The notes beneath the pieces were generated by a model, which saw nothing but the letters and a program-made list of their open reading frames with translations, was not told the DNA's origin and searched no databases. A program made the translations under genes and the position numbers. A DNA stretch of 48,157 nucleotides from a virus. The stretch spans positions 1 to 48,157 of the IMG/VR virus record IMGVR_UViG_3300025362_000013; one strand, 5' to 3'. Below are positions 3,066 to 47,960 of the stretch, piece by piece (the first letter of the stretch is position 1; the number at the start of each line of letters is the position of its first letter).

Positions 3066-3142
3066 TGGTTGCGGGGGTGGGAATCGAACCCACAATACAG
3101 ATGCTTATGAGACACCTTAGCCTACCAAAGCTTGTCCCCGCA
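3066..3142 (-). tRNA. tRNA with CAU anticodon (Met or Ile2), initiator-like acceptor
   Basis: Cloverleaf on the minus strand: acceptor TGCGGGG/CCCCGCA, D-loop with TTTGGTAG, anticodon loop CTCATAA (anticodon CAT), T-arm GTGGG-TTCGATT-CCCAC, discriminator A and encoded CCA. The acceptor resembles bacterial initiator tRNA except for T1-A72 in place of C1-A72, and an A11-T24 pair is present, but the three G-C anticodon-stem pairs of initiators are missing. Met elongator, Met initiator-like or lysidine-modified Ile cannot be separated by eye. Confidence 0.9.
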
Positions 3143-5122: not shown

Positions 5123-6064
5123 CTAAGAATTATCATCGAGTTCGTCGAGAGAACAACTTTCAGCACCAGATTTTAAAGCCACTATTCCAGCTGTTATGTT
5201 AGCAATATTAGCACTCATCTCTAGACCTAAACCATTTGCGAGAGCTAAAGTAAATGTAGATATTATCGTATCACCACAACCTGTTACATCAACAATTTCC
5301 TGCTTTTCTGCTTTTAGATGATTGCCAATAAAATTATCTGCATAATATAAACCATTCTCGCTTAGTGTTATAAGCACATTTTCAAAACAATACTCAGCTA
5401 ATAATTTATGAGCTAATTCAAAAGAAGCTTTATAATCAGTTATATTAGTATTAAATATCTTAGATAACTCCTTTAAATTAGGTGTAATGGAAGTATAGTT
5501 AGCAAAACAACTGACATCTGCTTTCTTCGTGTCAACTGTTATAATCTTATTTTTCTTTAAAGCTAGTTTACCTAAAAATTCTGCTAACTCTACATTAATC
5601 ATACCTTTATCATAATCAGATACTATTATTGCATCGAAGTATCTAGCGTGTCGCTCTAAATCCTCTTTAATTACATCTAGTTTAAAATTATTAAAACAAA
5701 TATGTTCTCTATCAACTCTCAATAGATGCTGATTGCCTGAGATGTATCTTGTCTTTTGTGTAGTAACTACGTTTTTGTCTGCAATTAATAGATTAATGTT
5801 TATTCCTTTCTTCTGCAATAACTCTGAGACAATAGAACCTTCAATATCTTCACCTATTTTGCCTACAATCCAAACATTTGCACCAAGAGCTGTTAAATTT
5901 TTAGCCACATTAGCACAGCCACCTAACTTATACTCACTAGAGTCTTTACTTAATATTGGAACAGGTGCTTCTGGAGATATGCGTGAGACTGAGCCTCTAA
6001 CATACTTATCAAGCATTAGGTCACCAACAACAAGTATATTCTTTTTATTTAGATTAGATTTCAT
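5123..6064 (-). CDS. hldE: HldE/RfaE-like heptose kinase (PfkB family)
   Basis: 313 residues matching the kinase half of bifunctional HldE, which phosphorylates D-glycero-D-manno-heptose 7-phosphate on the way to ADP-heptose for lipopolysaccharide. Visible: GDLMLDKYVRG near residue 14, SRISPEAPVP, GGCANVAKNL, and the C-terminal PfkB signature DVTGCGDT with its catalytic Asp around 264. The nucleotidyltransferase half is absent. In a phage it could feed heptose into receptor alteration or capsid/DNA decoration, or act on another sugar. The symbol refers to the kinase domain only. Confidence 0.85.
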   Translation of the reverse strand: MKSNLNKKNILVVGDLMLDKYVRGSVSRISPEAPVPILSKDSSEYKLGGCANVAKNLTALGANVWIVGKIGEDIEGSIVSELLQKKGININLLIADKNVVTTQKTRYISGNQHLLRVDREHICFNNFKLDVIKEDLERHARYFDAIIVSDYDKGMINVELAEFLGKLALKKNKIITVDTKKADVSCFANYTSITPNLKELSKIFNTNITDYKASFELAHKLLAEYCFENVLITLSENGLYYADNFIGNHLKAEKQEIVDVTGCGDTIISTFTLALANGLGLEMSANIANITAGIVALKSGAESCSLDELDDNS

Positions 6065-24323: not shown

Positions 24324-24755
24324 TTAAAGGTTCTTTTCTGTGAAAGGTTTTACTGCGTCAGGATACTTCTCAATAATCTCTTCTGCTTTTTTATTTAATT
24401 TCTGCACCCAATCTGTATCCAAAGTTTTAGGCGGTCTATCATCTACAATATTATTCTGAAGCATACTATCTCTTATTATAACTAAACATGCTATTGCTTT
24501 TACAATATGACTTAATCCAGAATCTTTATCAACATCTTCACCGTTCCACCAAGCACCTAAGTGTCTGCGTAAAGCATCTATATAAACACTAGCTCTTACT
24601 CCAGCTACTCGCCAATTATAGGCACCATATTTTCTTGCTCCCTCTAAGAAAGCTAGACCCACTTCACCTAAAACATTGTCAGGTATTAAAGCGAAAGGAA
24701 CCTTTTTTGTACCAACAGCGTCTTTTGGATTAGTGTCTTTTGCCCCTTTATTCAT
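24324..24755 (-). CDS. MazZ-like dATP/dGTP diphosphohydrolase
   Basis: 143 residues matching the phage family described for MazZ of cyanophage S-2L: KDTNPKDAVGTKKVP, then ALIPDNVLGEV, EGARKYGAYNWR and the helix LRRHLGAWWNGED. These all-alpha NTP pyrophosphatases remove pyrophosphate from purine (d)NTPs; some serve 2-aminoadenine synthesis. No PurZ is in the window, so general dNTP control is equally likely. Start 24755 has GGGAG upstream. Confidence 0.8.
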   Translation of the reverse strand: MNKGAKDTNPKDAVGTKKVPFALIPDNVLGEVGLAFLEGARKYGAYNWRVAGVRASVYIDALRRHLGAWWNGEDVDKDSGLSHIVKAIACLVIIRDSMLQNNIVDDRPPKTLDTDWVQKLNKKAEEIIEKYPDAVKPFTEKNL

Positions 24756-25847: not shown

Positions 25848-26380
25848 TGTTTTATTTTCTCCTGTTTTTTTAACTTTGCAATATAGGCCTTAACATCAGC
25901 ATCTTGTTCGGCAGATAAAGAATCATTTAAATCTTTGCCTGTCTTTCTTGTTTTCTGAACAGCACTAACTACTGACTTTAAGGATTTACCCGTAATACCT
26001 ATAGTTCCCTCTATTAATCTTCCTAAAAGAGTTCCTGCTAATCCAGGTACTAAAACTATTAAGAGGACGATGCCCCAAAATCCCCAGCCTATTAAACTAT
26101 TAATGAAGCTCTTTATTCTCTCAACAAAGTTCATCTTTCTTTCGACTTTTTGATAGCCTTCTTCATAGTTATAATATCCTTTAGAGCAAGAAATCATATC
26201 TCCTACATCATTAAATATAGCCTCACCTTTACAGGTAGCTTTTACTTTTGACCTATCAACATTTTGTGGTACTGTGTTGGGAGTATCAAATGTCAGACGT
26301 GGCAATAACGAGCATCCAGTTAAACAAAAGCTGAACAGTAATATTAAAATTAAATTTCTTATTGCTATTTGTTTGTGCAT
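25844..26380 (-). CDS. lipoprotein with internal membrane span, spanin-like candidate
   Basis: 178 residues from ATG 26380. A lipoprotein signal ends in the lipobox LTGC (about residue 22), then a periplasmic segment with two cysteines, a hydrophobic span (about 96-118: GFWGIVLLIVLVPGLAG) and a charged helical C-terminus. Lipid anchor plus transmembrane span recalls unimolecular spanins, which fuse the two membranes at lysis, but the long tail after the span is atypical. Confidence 0.6.
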   Translation of the reverse strand: MHKQIAIRNLILILLFSFCLTGCSLLPRLTFDTPNTVPQNVDRSKVKATCKGEAIFNDVGDMISCSKGYYNYEEGYQKVERKMNFVERIKSFINSLIGWGFWGIVLLIVLVPGLAGTLLGRLIEGTIGITGKSLKSVVSAVQKTRKTGKDLNDSLSAEQDADVKAYIAKLKKQEKIKQ

Positions 26381-26745
26381 TATCTTTTCTCCTGTTTGTA
26401 AACTGTTTTGCATAATTTAGTATTATACAATTCTTTAACATATGCTTTCTTGTAAACTGGAGCTAAATCATATCTCTCTAATAATAATCTTTCTACATTT
26501 TTAAATTCTTCACCATGCACTTTTATTATTTTCTTATGCACTTGATGTACTATCTGATGTGCAACTTCATGTAAAACATAATATAAAGAATAAGCCTCTA
26601 CTCTCTCTAAACTCCACATTGGTATAGTTACACTTGTTCGTAAGCTTCTACCTCTCCGAACATCTTTGTATTTAATAACAATGTCATTGAGATTAAACTC
26701 TTTTAAAATATCGTGTCCTATTTTTTTTAGTTCTGTCTGTGTCAT
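26380..26745 (-). CDS. SprT-like metallopeptidase, leaderless start
   Basis: 121 residues. VLHEVAHQIVHQ then HGEEFKNVERLL gives HExxH plus a downstream His, as in SprT/Spartan-type proteases that act on DNA-protein crosslinks. ATG 26745 is only five bases from the TATACT of promoter P6 with no ribosome site, so the mRNA is probably leaderless. The stop overlaps the lipoprotein gene. Confidence 0.72.
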   Translation of the reverse strand: MTQTELKKIGHDILKEFNLNDIVIKYKDVRRGRSLRTSVTIPMWSLERVEAYSLYYVLHEVAHQIVHQVHKKIIKVHGEEFKNVERLLLERYDLAPVYKKAYVKELYNTKLCKTVYKQEKR

Positions 26746-29934: not shown

Positions 29935-30008
29935 TGGCAGAGCTACTAAGAGTCGAACTCAAACTTTAAGATTCAAAATCTCACGTGCTACCATTACATC
30001 ATAGCTCT
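29935..30008 (-). tRNA. tRNA-Gln (UUG)
   Basis: Acceptor AGAGCTA/TAGCTCT, D-loop with AATGGTAG, anticodon arm TGAGA-TTTTGAA-TCTTA (anticodon TTG), T-arm TTGAG-TTCGACT-CTTAG, discriminator G and encoded CCA. It reads CAA, a codon favoured in this AT-rich genome. Confidence 0.93.
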
Positions 30009-37613: not shown

Positions 37614-37691
37614 TGGTCAGAAGGGAAGGATTTGAACCTTCGACCTCTCGCTTCCAAAACGAGCGACTTAACCAGACTAGCCCACCCTCTG
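37614..37691 (-). tRNA. tRNA-Pro (UGG)
   Basis: Acceptor CAGAGGG/CCTTCTG, D-arm with CTGGTTA, anticodon arm CTCGT-TTTGGAA-GCGAG (anticodon TGG), T-arm GAAGG-TTCAAAT-CCTTC, discriminator A and encoded CCA. It begins three bases after the rtcB stop codon. Confidence 0.93.
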
Positions 37692-37693
37692 AG

Positions 37694-38953
37694 TTATCCT
37701 TTAATTACAGCTAATGGTTGTAACTTTACTACAATATCAACCAAATCTTCTTGCTCTTTCATTACAACATCAATATCTTTATAGGCACCTGAGGCTTCAT
37801 CTAAACTAGAAACATCTCTGATAGAATGAATGATGCCTTGATTATTTAATTTACTTACTTCTTCTTTAAAATTTAATTCGTTTCGAGCTTTTGTTCTACT
37901 CATTTGTCTACCTGCACCGTGTGAACAGGACTTAAACGAGTCTGTATTTCCTTTACCTTTAACAATGTAAGACGCTGTGCCTTGACTGCCTGGAATTATT
38001 CCTAGCTGACCTTCATTTGCAGATGTTGCACCTTTTCTATGCACCCAAACATTTTCTCCAAAATGATTTTCTAGATTAGCATAGTTATGATGAATGTTAA
38101 TAAAAGAATCTCTTGTTTTTTGTAACCCAGTAAAATCATTATCAAATAAGCCTTGAGTAACAAGAACTTGAATAATATTAGTCATCATTAATTTTCTATT
38201 AGCATAAGCAAAGGCTAAACAGTAATTCATTTCTTTTATATAATTTTGACCTTCTTCTGTATCTACAGGTAAAAAAGCTAGACCATCTTGTCCAGTATAC
38301 TCAGGTATGTTTGAACACCATTTATTACATAAATCTTGAGCAACTTTATTATAGTGTTTAGCAACCTTATAGCCTAAATTTCTAGAGCCACTATGAATCA
38401 TAATCCAAATATTTCCAACATCATTAATATTTTCTCTGCCTCTTTGAATTTCTATGAAGTGATTACCTCCACCCAAGGTACCTAATTGTTGTGTAGCTTT
38501 ACTATACTGTTTTTGTACTACAGAATTATAATGCTCATTCCAATCATGCGATGAACACCAATCTATCATTGAGTTAGAAGAAGAATTTACATCTGGCATT
38601 AAATTATCAGAACGCTCTTTCTTGTGCTTTTCAAAACCTACAGGAATAACTTTTCTAATTTCACTTAAAATAATCTTTAACTGGTCAGTAGTAATATCTG
38701 TCAAAGTAGTTTTAATAGCACACATACCACAACCAATGTCAACACCAACAGCATTTGGTATTATAACATTCTTTGTAGCAATAACTCCGCCAATAGGCAT
38801 ACCATAACCTTGATGAGTGTCTGGCATTAATGCAACATGTTTAAATAGAAAAGGTAAAGATGCCAAATTTCTAGCCTGATTTACTGCACCCTCTTCTGGA
38901 TTGTTACACCAAGATTTTATTACTGCTTTATTTTCTTCGCTATAATATTTCAT
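37694..38953 (-). CDS. rtcB: RtcB RNA-splicing ligase
   Basis: 419 residues. Metal and GMP-binding segments are readable: MPDTHQGYGMPIGG, GVDIGCGMCAIK, TLGGGNHFIE, HSGSRNLG and the C-terminal guanylate site SCSHGAGR (His). RtcB joins 2',3'-cyclic phosphate and 5'-OH RNA ends, undoing cleavage by anticodon nucleases. It is next to tRNA-Pro and close to a second RNA ligase, which suggests tRNA repair. Confidence 0.93.
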   Translation of the reverse strand: MKYYSEENKAVIKSWCNNPEEGAVNQARNLASLPFLFKHVALMPDTHQGYGMPIGGVIATKNVIIPNAVGVDIGCGMCAIKTTLTDITTDQLKIILSEIRKVIPVGFEKHKKERSDNLMPDVNSSSNSMIDWCSSHDWNEHYNSVVQKQYSKATQQLGTLGGGNHFIEIQRGRENINDVGNIWIMIHSGSRNLGYKVAKHYNKVAQDLCNKWCSNIPEYTGQDGLAFLPVDTEEGQNYIKEMNYCLAFAYANRKLMMTNIIQVLVTQGLFDNDFTGLQKTRDSFINIHHNYANLENHFGENVWVHRKGATSANEGQLGIIPGSQGTASYIVKGKGNTDSFKSCSHGAGRQMSRTKARNELNFKEEVSKLNNQGIIHSIRDVSSLDEASGAYKDIDVVMKEQEDLVDIVVKLQPLAVIKG

Positions 38954-43471: not shown

Positions 43472-43503
43472 TTTGTTTCTCCTTGTTAGTTAATATTTAT
43501 TTA

Positions 43504-43575
43504 CGGGAATGTTTGGACTCGAACCAAAAATAATGGTTTTGGAGACCATCGTGTTACCAATTACACCACACTCCC
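43504..43575 (-). tRNA. tRNA-Trp (CCA)
   Basis: Acceptor GGGAGTG/CATTCCC, D-arm GTG-TAATTGGTAA-CAC, anticodon arm ATGGT-CTCCAAA-ACCAT (anticodon CCA), T-arm TTTGG-TTCGAGT-CCAAA, discriminator G. Unlike the other three tRNAs it does not encode the terminal CCA. Confidence 0.92.
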
Positions 43576-43578
43576 AAA

Positions 43579-43686: not shown

Positions 43687-43701
43687 TTAAATTTCCTTTC
43701 G

Positions 43702-43935
43702 CTACACGTTAGCACATAAACATCTTGCAATAATTTTGTTATTACATTTAATAAAACCATCTATGATAGGATATAAGGCTCCACAATCTTGACATTGAGC
43801 GTGATACAATTTTTTATATTCCTCTACGATAGGTCGTGTAAACAGTCCAAAATATCCTGTAACAGTTTCGTACTCTCCAGTTGGTCTGGAAAATGTTTGA
43901 TGTATCTTTGTTCTTTCTAGTCTGCCTTTTGACAT
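43702..43935 (-). CDS. small cysteine protein, 77 aa
   Basis: Basic N-terminus (MSKGRLERTKIHQTF), central strands, then QCQDCGALY and a C-terminal CNN...CLC that should bind zinc. Leader contains GCGAAAGG (43944-43951, minus strand). First gene behind promoter P11. Confidence 0.65.
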   Translation of the reverse strand: MSKGRLERTKIHQTFSRPTGEYETVTGYFGLFTRPIVEEYKKLYHAQCQDCGALYPIIDGFIKCNNKIIARCLCANV

Positions 43936-43959
43936 TTTGTTTCCCTTTCGCTTTTCTCA

Positions 43960-43988
43960 AGTATAACACACGATTTCTCATTTGTCAA
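43960..43988 (-). promoter_or_regulatory. sigma-70 promoter P11
   Basis: TTGACA (43988-43983), 17-bp spacer ending TGT, TATACT (43965-43960). Leader of about 20 bases holds the GCGAAAGG ribosome motif. Confidence 0.88.
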
Positions 43989-44109: not shown

Positions 44110-44274
44110 CTATCCTCTTAATAACTGTTTATATATTCTCATATGATAATCATAACAAGAATTAAATTTATTTTTACATATCAATTTTAATTTCTCTTCC
44201 GTTCTTTCTACGCCATAAATCTTAAACATTCGCTGTATGGCTTCGGTTGCTCTTTTCTCTTTATTGTCTAGCAT
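44110..44274 (-). CDS. hypothetical 54-aa basic protein
   Basis: MLDNKEKRATEAIQRMF onward, helical and basic. ATG 44274 shares its A with the stop of the upstream membrane protein, and TAGGAG lies just before it. Function unknown. Confidence 0.55.
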   Translation of the reverse strand: MLDNKEKRATEAIQRMFKIYGVERTEEKLKLICKNKFNSCYDYHMRIYKQLLRG

Positions 44275-44453
44275 TAGTATCTCCTAGACTGACGTTCCCA
44301 ATTTCTGCATGAGAATAAAAAACCACCAAACTTAACTACTCCAGTTAAAATTAATAAAGCTATAATTGCATAGTGTATCTTAAAAAATTTAAAACATAGA
44401 AATAGAATTAGCATAGTCAATAAAATTTCAAGTATTTTAATAAGATATTTCAT
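44274..44453 (-). CDS. 59-aa membrane protein
   Basis: Two hydrophobic segments (MKYLIKILEILLTMLILFL, then YAIIALLILTGVV) and a basic C-terminus. AAGGAG before the ATG. First gene after the hairpin element 44473-44530, so its expression could depend on that structure. Confidence 0.55.
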   Translation of the reverse strand: MKYLIKILEILLTMLILFLCFKFFKIHYAIIALLILTGVVKFGGFLFSCRNWERQSRRY

Positions 44454-44472
44454 ATTTCTCCTTAAATAGGGG

Positions 44473-44530
44473 GAGGACGATATAGCGAAAGGTGAGCTGT
44501 CGGGGGTTTAGCTCGAAGAATATCGCCCTC
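44473..44530 (-). ncRNA. hairpin RNA with anti-ribosome-site loop (candidate regulator)
   Basis: Minus-strand RNA folds as an outer stem GAGGGCGAUAU/AUAUCGUCCUC (one mismatch) and an inner stem GAGCU/AGCUC with an 11-base C-rich loop. The 3' internal loop is ACCUUUCGCU. Its CCUUUCGC is the exact complement of the GCGAAAGG ribosome motif before five genes (43686, 43935, 45323, 46876 and 47926); with the 46876 leader the match extends to 11 bases. It lies between two small membrane-protein genes on the P12 transcript. Confidence 0.6.
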
Positions 44531-44537
44531 GTAAAAT

Positions 44538-44756
44538 TTATAGTAAAGTTACTGCATAGTAAACAGACAAAAGCATTATAGATAAAAAACCTGCTAATAA
44601 ACCTATACCAACTAAGGAACATAATAACATAGGTATGATTAGAATTACTTGAACAACAAGCATAGCACACTTAACTACTATCGAGGCTAAGAACTCAATA
44701 ATTCTTGCAATATTATTAATGCTACCTTTGCATAAACTAAGCGTTGTATCAGTCAT
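44538..44756 (-). CDS. 72-aa membrane protein
   Basis: MTDTTLSLCKGSINNIAR, then two strongly hydrophobic spans (about 24-45 and 48-70). The start overlaps the upstream gene by eight bases. Its end precedes the 44473-44530 hairpin. Function unknown. Confidence 0.6.
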   Translation of the reverse strand: MTDTTLSLCKGSINNIARIIEFLASIVVKCAMLVVQVILIIPMLLCSLVGIGLLAGFLSIMLLSVYYAVTLL

Positions 44757-44928: not shown

Positions 44929-45138
44929 CTAAGAGTAAAATAACTTCTCTGAATTATTTTTTAAATACTCAATATAATTTTTAAGACGTTCAATCTCATC
45001 TTCTAATACTTTCTTTTCTTTATTTAAAATTGTTTCTCTACTGCACTTTAAAATATATTTTATTTCTAAGTCAGAATACACGCAGTAAGAAAATACCGCT
45101 AAGCCTATACATACAATAACGATTATACTTATTAGCAT
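44929..45138 (-). CDS. 69-aa membrane protein with coiled coil
   Basis: An N-terminal span (MLISIIVIVCIGLAVFSYC) followed by a charged coiled-coil (EKKVLEDEIERLKNYIEYL). The plan, one span plus a periplasmic or cytoplasmic coil, is that of small inner-membrane spanins, though no lysis gene is adjacent. Confidence 0.55.
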   Translation of the reverse strand: MLISIIVIVCIGLAVFSYCVYSDLEIKYILKCSRETILNKEKKVLEDEIERLKNYIEYLKNNSEKLFYS

Positions 45139-45323
45139 TTTATACTCTCCTGTTTTATGGTCTCTAAATAATTGTCCAATACTTTGTCGATAGAGATTTT
45201 TAATTCTTTAATCTTATTATCACATGCTTTTTTTTCATCATGTCTAGACGAATTTTGTTTTTGATTATTTAAACTTTCAATCTGTAAACATAATTGTAAA
45301 AAATTATTTTTATGATTTAGCAT
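45132..45323 (-). CDS. hypothetical 63-aa coiled-coil protein
   Basis: From ATG 45323: MLNHKNNFLQLCLQIES and a charged helix. An in-frame start further up would lie in promoter P12, so 45323 is chosen. The leader contains GCGAAAGGGG (45331-45340, minus strand). Confidence 0.55.
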   Translation of the reverse strand: MLNHKNNFLQLCLQIESLNNQKQNSSRHDEKKACDNKIKELKISIDKVLDNYLETIKQESIKC

Positions 45324-45348
45324 TTCAAATCCCCTTTCGCACTTGTTA

Positions 45349-45377
45349 AGTATAGCACATCTTTCCACATTTGTCAA
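45349..45377 (-). promoter_or_regulatory. sigma-70 promoter P12
   Basis: TTGACA (45377-45372), 17-bp spacer ending TGC, TATACT (45354-45349). Drives a run of small coiled-coil and membrane genes and the 44473-44530 hairpin. Confidence 0.88.
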
Positions 45378-45395: not shown

Positions 45396-45746
45396 TTAAT
45401 ATTTGGCACTCTTAGATAAATTTTCTTTTGCCCATAAAGGTTGTAAGTTAGTGTAATTAAAGCACTTACGTTGCTCTGTTTTCTTACTTAAATCAAATTT
45501 AGCACAAGGTTTAATATGGTCTATGTGCCAGCCTTCCAAACTATGATTATTCCATGTCATTCCCTTTTTAAATTTATTCTCTAGATGTATTTTAAAATTA
45601 TCTATAGAACACCCTAATAAGATTACAGTTGACTCAAGTTTTGAATTATTTTTAATTACCTTTACTATTCTAGCTCTAAGCACTTGCTCGACTCTATATG
45701 CTTTATTATTCTTATAGAGGTCTCTGCGTCTAGCATTTCTTATCAA
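45396..45746 (-). CDS. HNH endonuclease
   Basis: 116 residues. GWHIDHIKPCAKFDLS is the HNH core, followed by CFNYTNLQPLWAKENLSKS, the usual C-terminal Asn motif. It appears to start at TTG 45746, inside the end of the small frame 45730-45789; a one-base deletion in the A run there would fuse the two. Probably a mobile homing nuclease. Confidence 0.78.
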   Translation of the reverse strand: MIRNARRRDLYKNNKAYRVEQVLRARIVKVIKNNSKLESTVILLGCSIDNFKIHLENKFKKGMTWNNHSLEGWHIDHIKPCAKFDLSKKTEQRKCFNYTNLQPLWAKENLSKSAKY

Positions 45747-46876: not shown

Positions 46877-46930
46877 GATTGATTTCCTTTCGCTATTGAT
46901 TGACCCCGTTTTTGTTTGTCTTACCTTCCA

Positions 46931-46959
46931 AGTATACCATACGATTCCACGTTTGTCAA
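46931..46959 (-). promoter_or_regulatory. sigma-70 promoter P13
   Basis: TTGACA (46959-46954), 17-bp spacer ending TGG, TATACT (46936-46931). Drives ardC with a leader of about 50 bases; a 14-bp palindrome lies 40 bp upstream. Confidence 0.87.
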
Positions 46960-47926: not shown

Positions 47927-47960
47927 TGTAAAACCCCTTTCGCATTTAAGTTATTAATTA

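Follow-up and report, generated by a model that had tools for sequence, protein, structure and literature searches.

A conserved hairpin RNA in a phage operon carries an exposed complement of the ribosome-site motif of its gene module

The window (the whole stretch of DNA analyzed here, a 48,157-bp IMG/VR contig from an uncultivated phage) has a GC content of 31%, and its gene content includes a terminase, a DNA polymerase, a UvsX-like recombinase, RtcB, a DNA ligase, and an SbcC-like subunit. The RtcB RNA ligase lies at 37694-38953, and four single tRNA genes are found between operons, at 3066-3142 (Met), 29935-30008 (Gln), 37614-37691 (Pro), and 43503-43576 (Trp). A ligase search identified L013, an IMG/VR contig of 51,765 bp with an 87% identical ligase, as the one relative found to have the region described below.

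Five ORFs between 43.6 and 48 kb carry the 8-mer GCGAAAGG in the Shine-Dalgarno position (Table 1); one of them is an ardC-like gene, whose product contains ArdcN and MPTase-PolyVal domains. The original prediction held that five genes share this ribosome-site motif, which had been noticed nowhere else in the window. The shared motif is confirmed, each copy ending 8 or 9 nt ahead of its ATG. The exclusivity holds for ribosome sites, as no other window gene carries GCGAAAGG, but fails for the bare 8-mer, which lies on the plus strand at 24691-24698 as well as at 44485-44492, within the hairpin described below; in minus-strand terms these are the two complements of the motif. The copy at 24691-24698 is a chance occurrence in a coding region and is absent from the relative. 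Counting both strands, the 8-mer occurs 7 times versus 0.39 expected, a number reached in 0 of 100 dinucleotide-preserving shuffles.

The hairpin is situated mid-operon, flanked by two small predicted membrane-protein genes, and its operon and all genes of the GCGAAAGG set are on the minus strand. Folding gives an 11-bp lower stem, an asymmetric 5/10-nt internal loop, a 5-bp upper stem, and an 11-nt C-rich loop; the minus-strand reading from 44530 to 44473 is GAGGGCGAUAU UCUUC GAGCU AAACCCCCGAC AGCUC ACCUUUCGCU AUAUCGUCCUC. The stability of the fold is only moderate for its own composition (z of -1.6, 121 nt folded). A perfect complement of the leader motif, CCUUUCGC, is exposed in the internal loop, as had been predicted, with per-base unpaired probabilities of 0.72-0.99 in the fold of the hairpin and an opening cost of 0.2 kcal/mol. 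The hairpin lies 20-22 nt ahead of the ATG of the 59-aa membrane protein, and the Shine-Dalgarno sequence of that gene, AAGGAG, follows about 10 nt past it. No dedicated sigma-70 promoter and no intrinsic terminator were found at the hairpin. The first gene of its operon has a GCGAAAGG leader behind a TTGACA-17-TATACT promoter; hence, the hairpin and one possible target are probably on one mRNA.

Table 1. Positions of the hairpin, its exposed complement, the flanking genes, and the GCGAAAGG ribosome sites in the window.
Feature	Position	Strand	Remarks
Conserved hairpin RNA	44473..44530	(-), mRNA strand	Folds; covariance model; one compensatory pair A-U/G-C
CCUUUCGC, unpaired 3' side of internal loop	44485..44492	(-)	Exact complement of leader motif; identical in L013
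72-aa predicted membrane protein	44538..44756	(-)	Directly upstream of hairpin; ortholog in L013
59-aa predicted membrane protein	44274..44453	(-)	Directly downstream of hairpin; ortholog in L013
GCGAAAGG ribosome site, 35-aa ORF starting 43686	43695..43702	(-)	Overlaps stop of upstream gene; without own promoter
GCGAAAGG ribosome site, gene 43702-43935	43944..43951	(-)	Promoter at 43988
GCGAAAGG ribosome site, gene 45132-45323 (first of hairpin operon)	45333..45340	(-)	TTGACA-17-TATACT at 45377; orthologous leader kept in L013 at 4048
GCGAAAGG ribosome site, ardC-like gene (ATG 46876)	46886..46893	(-)	Promoter at 46959; longest hairpin complement, 11 nt
GCGAAAGG ribosome site, 46-aa ORF starting 47926	47936..47943	(-)	Without strong promoter

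Several neighboring features were observed in passing. Between ardC and the hairpin operon, an endonuclease VII/HNH-like gene (45396-45746) has no counterpart directly upstream of the L013 operon and contains a 55-bp stretch 85% identical to Vibrio phage F89 g1; it is possibly a mobile endonuclease. The segment 47000-47740 holds no convincing gene. It combines AT-rich AATAGTA-type repeats with a core of TGCCTGCG/GTGTGCG repeats that reaches 71% GC, versus 31% for the genome, and the relative's contig has a similar stretch of 76% GC close to its end (G001 51319-51376). The segment is a candidate replication origin or packaging region.

In L013 the operon is syntenic and the hairpin occupies the same operon position. 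Three substitutions separate the two hairpins over 58 aligned positions, while the surrounding 1.4 kb differs by about 22% (p 5e-4). A single compensatory pair, A-U to G-C, accounts for two of the three, and the third falls in the terminal loop. Coming from two sequences, this single covarying stem pair provides modest evidence for the predicted structure. An A is inserted beside CCUUUCGC in L013, and CCUUUCGC itself is unchanged, so that the complementarity persists along with the hairpin. The hairpin is a real, new, and conserved phage RNA element. Scanned with Rfam cmscan at gathering scores, the whole window gave tRNAs only, and a permissive scan of 44300-44700 gave no plausible family; the hairpin matched no Rfam model of the known riboswitch or ribozyme classes, nor model C4 (c4 antisense RNA).

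The compensatory change preserves a DNA palindrome too, and the GC content of the element is high for a genome of 31% GC, as might be expected if the inverted repeat worked as DNA (a protein-binding site or cruciform, for example in replication) and the RNA fold were incidental. We find this hardly credible, given that the repeat is located in a compact operon with a single transcription direction, that its asymmetric conserved loop bases are not palindromic, and that the separate GC-rich repeats at 47.2-47.5 kb make a better origin candidate.

Outside these two genomes, a covariance model built from the window and L013 hairpins found no third copy in any record searched. Pattern searches for the hairpin yielded nothing in a genome contig collection or in plasmids, and a search with the concatenated operon-protein alignment recovered no further operon. 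Hairpin-pattern matches in two other viral contigs (L015 and L016) were chance hits in unrelated sequence, leaving L013 as the only genuine match, and a phage-record match with an E value of about 4 was rejected, as it covered the downstream flank only. The terminase relatives carry neither hairpin nor motif in their records, which may miss the region (G005, the largest, aligns with window positions 1-25.9 kb only). A distant relative, G009, is without the hairpin and has only one GCGAAAGG-type leader, and the promoter-motif pattern retrieved, over the viral contigs, L013 and single unconnected leaders in five others. Folding of GC peaks singled out no other hairpin candidate. Two phage contigs of 43-45% GC have a common leader, TTGACA..TATACTTTATATGTAATGCGAAAGGGGTTTT, at L050:10567 and L053:5761, as a single copy with no hairpin; L050 has weak similarity to the window in the terminase region, and these leaders may represent the same type in a more remote lineage.

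The motif follows a region rather than particular genes. In L013, too, there are five GCGAAAGG leaders, which all fall within the final 5.5 kb, near the contig end, so that ten leaders in two genomes place the motif 7-9 nt before an ATG. Only one orthologous gene pair is common to the two five-gene sets, the other four L013 motif genes being unrelated to those of the window; with one shared pair among ten leaders, the motif appears to track the module and not its genes. Nor is the motif common genome-wide: it is uncommon elsewhere in both contigs, each having 5 leaders in one region. The clustering of motif genes gives Fisher p values of 3e-5 and 9e-5 with region boundaries and gene calls that were our own and somewhat post hoc. 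A gene with weak similarity to SprT has a motif leader in the L013 module (5452-5814), and its counterpart in the window (26380-26745, at 26.7 kb) is without the motif. The window gene begins with a leaderless-looking TATACTAAAGTATG, and the case reads as a translocated gene with an exchanged leader.

Promoters show the same regional restriction. Among the right-end TTGACA-TATACT promoters of both genomes, 8 of 9 lead into the exact motif (a count that allows for one leader whose motif was hidden from the script by an upstream ATG), versus a best match of 6 of 8 motif positions among the 21 promoters elsewhere. The motif begins 8 nt past TATACT in 7 of 8 right-end promoter leaders and so should sit at the extreme 5' end of the mRNA, given inferred transcription start sites. 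Across leaders it is the spacing between motif and ATG that remains constant, which suggests that the motif functions in RNA, at the ribosome site. In a strand-directed search we also observed 14 minus-strand TTGACA-N16-18-TATACT promoters, from 885 to 46959. Most take the form CTTGACAAA-N-TGTGTTATACTT, CTTGACAAA being absent from the plus strand, and most look like diverged copies of a single cassette placed at gene borders.

The complete arrangement TTGACA-17-TATACT-8-GCGAAAGG is present in 5/5 L013 leaders and 2/5 window leaders, and GAAAGG pairs well with a generic 16S rRNA 3' end. Both observations would suit an explanation in which GCGAAAGG is the plain Shine-Dalgarno sequence of the module, spread as a duplicated promoter-leader cassette or read by a phage protein, with the hairpin unrelated; for a protein reader there is the T4 precedent of protein regulators acting on many early ribosome sites (PMC3014915). 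We regard this explanation as improbable. The promoter spacers have diverged whereas all 8 motif bases are fixed, two window leaders (motif at 43702 and 47943) carry the motif without a promoter, and in ardC the motif is displaced by a 29-nt insertion yet still lies 8-9 nt before the ATG.

How readily could the complementarity arise by chance? Shuffling the loop letters recreated CCTTTCGC in 288 of 400,000 trials (p 7e-4), shuffling all hairpin letters did so in 969 of 400,000, and 2,287 trials did so under a first-order Markov model. The chance of a complement to any 8-mer common to at least 4 leaders is about 2%, and 0.2% of 58-nt window segments contain the complement. Across the 51.8 kb of L013, the complement of the motif is present solely in the hairpin. 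Seed complementarity is kept in the relative, 8-mer and motif being identical in the two genomes. Since neither CCUUUCGC nor GCGAAAGG differs between them, covariation of the hairpin-leader pairing cannot show, and the second genome adds no independence. These statistics are suggestive and not conclusive; they do not fully exclude chance.

In the ardC leader the match to the hairpin extends to 11 bases, AUAGCGAAAGG, as the original prediction had stated. The leader consensus runs on as GGGG, where the hairpin loop (AACC) does not match. The CCCCC loop was considered too, as a possible further antisense site, but the GGGG found in some leaders is too short a match to judge. Calculated hairpin-leader duplexes of 8-11 pairs have energies of -13 to -16.5 kcal/mol. 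For comparison, a generic 16S rRNA 3' end, typed in and possibly not that of the host, gives -9.8 and -12 kcal/mol with two leaders. Geometry is the main difficulty for the pairing, since accommodating 8-9 pairs inside the 10-nt strand of the asymmetric internal loop puts strain on the helices at either side. Nested cofolding requires the leader to open the lower stem, which reduces the net gain to -0.1 to -10.3 kcal/mol.

These data bear on a further explanation, that the hairpin serves its own operon in cis (as a translational operator, a small aptamer, or a processing/stability hairpin) and that its match to GCGAAAGG is coincidental. Pyrimidine-rich loops resemble the anti-Shine-Dalgarno sequence, which favors a coincidental match, and every loop is conserved, not CCUUUCGC alone: the other loop bases (UUCUU, AAACCCCC) are conserved equally, without an obvious partner. 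The hairpin lies just ahead of the AAGGAG of 44274-44453 in both genomes, its 3' strand GUCCUCC could pair alternatively with the downstream GGAG, and it has no promoter or terminator of its own. Against this, the loop holds an exact 8-nt complement, at the loop-shuffle probability given above, to a motif that marks the same region on independent grounds, and the predicted folds of the two genomes do not agree on any clear on/off pairing with the downstream ribosome site. We judge a cis-acting operon hairpin with coincidental complementarity to be about equally likely as antisense control.

The reading we narrowly favor, with a probability of roughly 0.4, is that the hairpin plausibly acts as an antisense element toward the ribosome sites of the module. 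The original prediction of a trans-acting antisense RNA or decoy is supported in part, by the regional leader class, the conserved hairpin, and the retained complementarity; a separate small RNA and an action in trans are putative, neither a strong sigma-70 promoter nor an intrinsic terminator having been found at the hairpin. In the model we propose, a conserved structured RNA would be carried within the mRNA of one right-end-module operon, its exposed CCUUUCGC being antisense to the GCGAAAGG sites of the module, including that of its own operon leader about 0.85 kb upstream. As this mRNA, or a processed piece of it, accumulated, the hairpin would pair with the leaders; pairing would cover the Shine-Dalgarno bases and lower translation of the whole set, constituting feedback. 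The active form may be the whole mRNA or a processed fragment. Opening of the lower stem would also free GUCCUCC, which could then cover the AAGGAG of the downstream gene, and a combined sensor and regulator working through the freed GUCCUCC is conceivable.

Among known systems, the c4 RNA of P1/P7, which shares its transcript context with its target, is nearest in function. Sequences in its loops are complementary to the part of a phage mRNA that binds the ribosome (PMC12197685), and the hairpin is like it in that the unpaired CCUUUCGC is the exact complement of five phage ribosome sites. Whereas c4 targets one mRNA (ant/icd), the hairpin complements a motif common to five leaders; unlike c4, it sits in a sense mRNA, lacks an Rfam C4 match, and is not known to be processed, and none of the phage genes examined here points to lysogeny. 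Lambda OOP, P22 sas, 24B_1, and lambda PreS are further phage RNAs proposed or shown to base-pair with mRNAs (PMC12197685). OOP and sas are opposite-strand antisense transcripts, whereas the hairpin lies within the sense operon mRNA, and PreS, a free sRNA that depends on Hfq, acts on a gene of the host, whereas the hairpin has no promoter or terminator of its own. In T4, many early ribosome sites are under coordinated post-transcriptional control by RegA and RegB (PMC3014915). These two are protein-based analogues of module-wide ribosome-site control, in contrast to the RNA-based model proposed here; RegA sites are A+U-rich around the AUG and RegB cuts GGAG/U, and GCGAAAGG contains neither.

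In its most general form, antisense control would make one sense-mRNA hairpin of a lytic-type phage an antisense hub that reads an 8-nt ribosome-site tag across an early-type module, such that any gene landing behind a tagged leader joins the regulon; we consider this broader proposal doubtful. If it were true, the basis of a phage regulon would be a common antisense tag rather than a protein repressor, and unrelated genes would enter common translational control by gaining a leader cassette. Even if the antisense model fails, the hairpin is a conserved phage RNA element without an Rfam family, and the tagged leaders mark a gene-swapping module with a constant translation signal.
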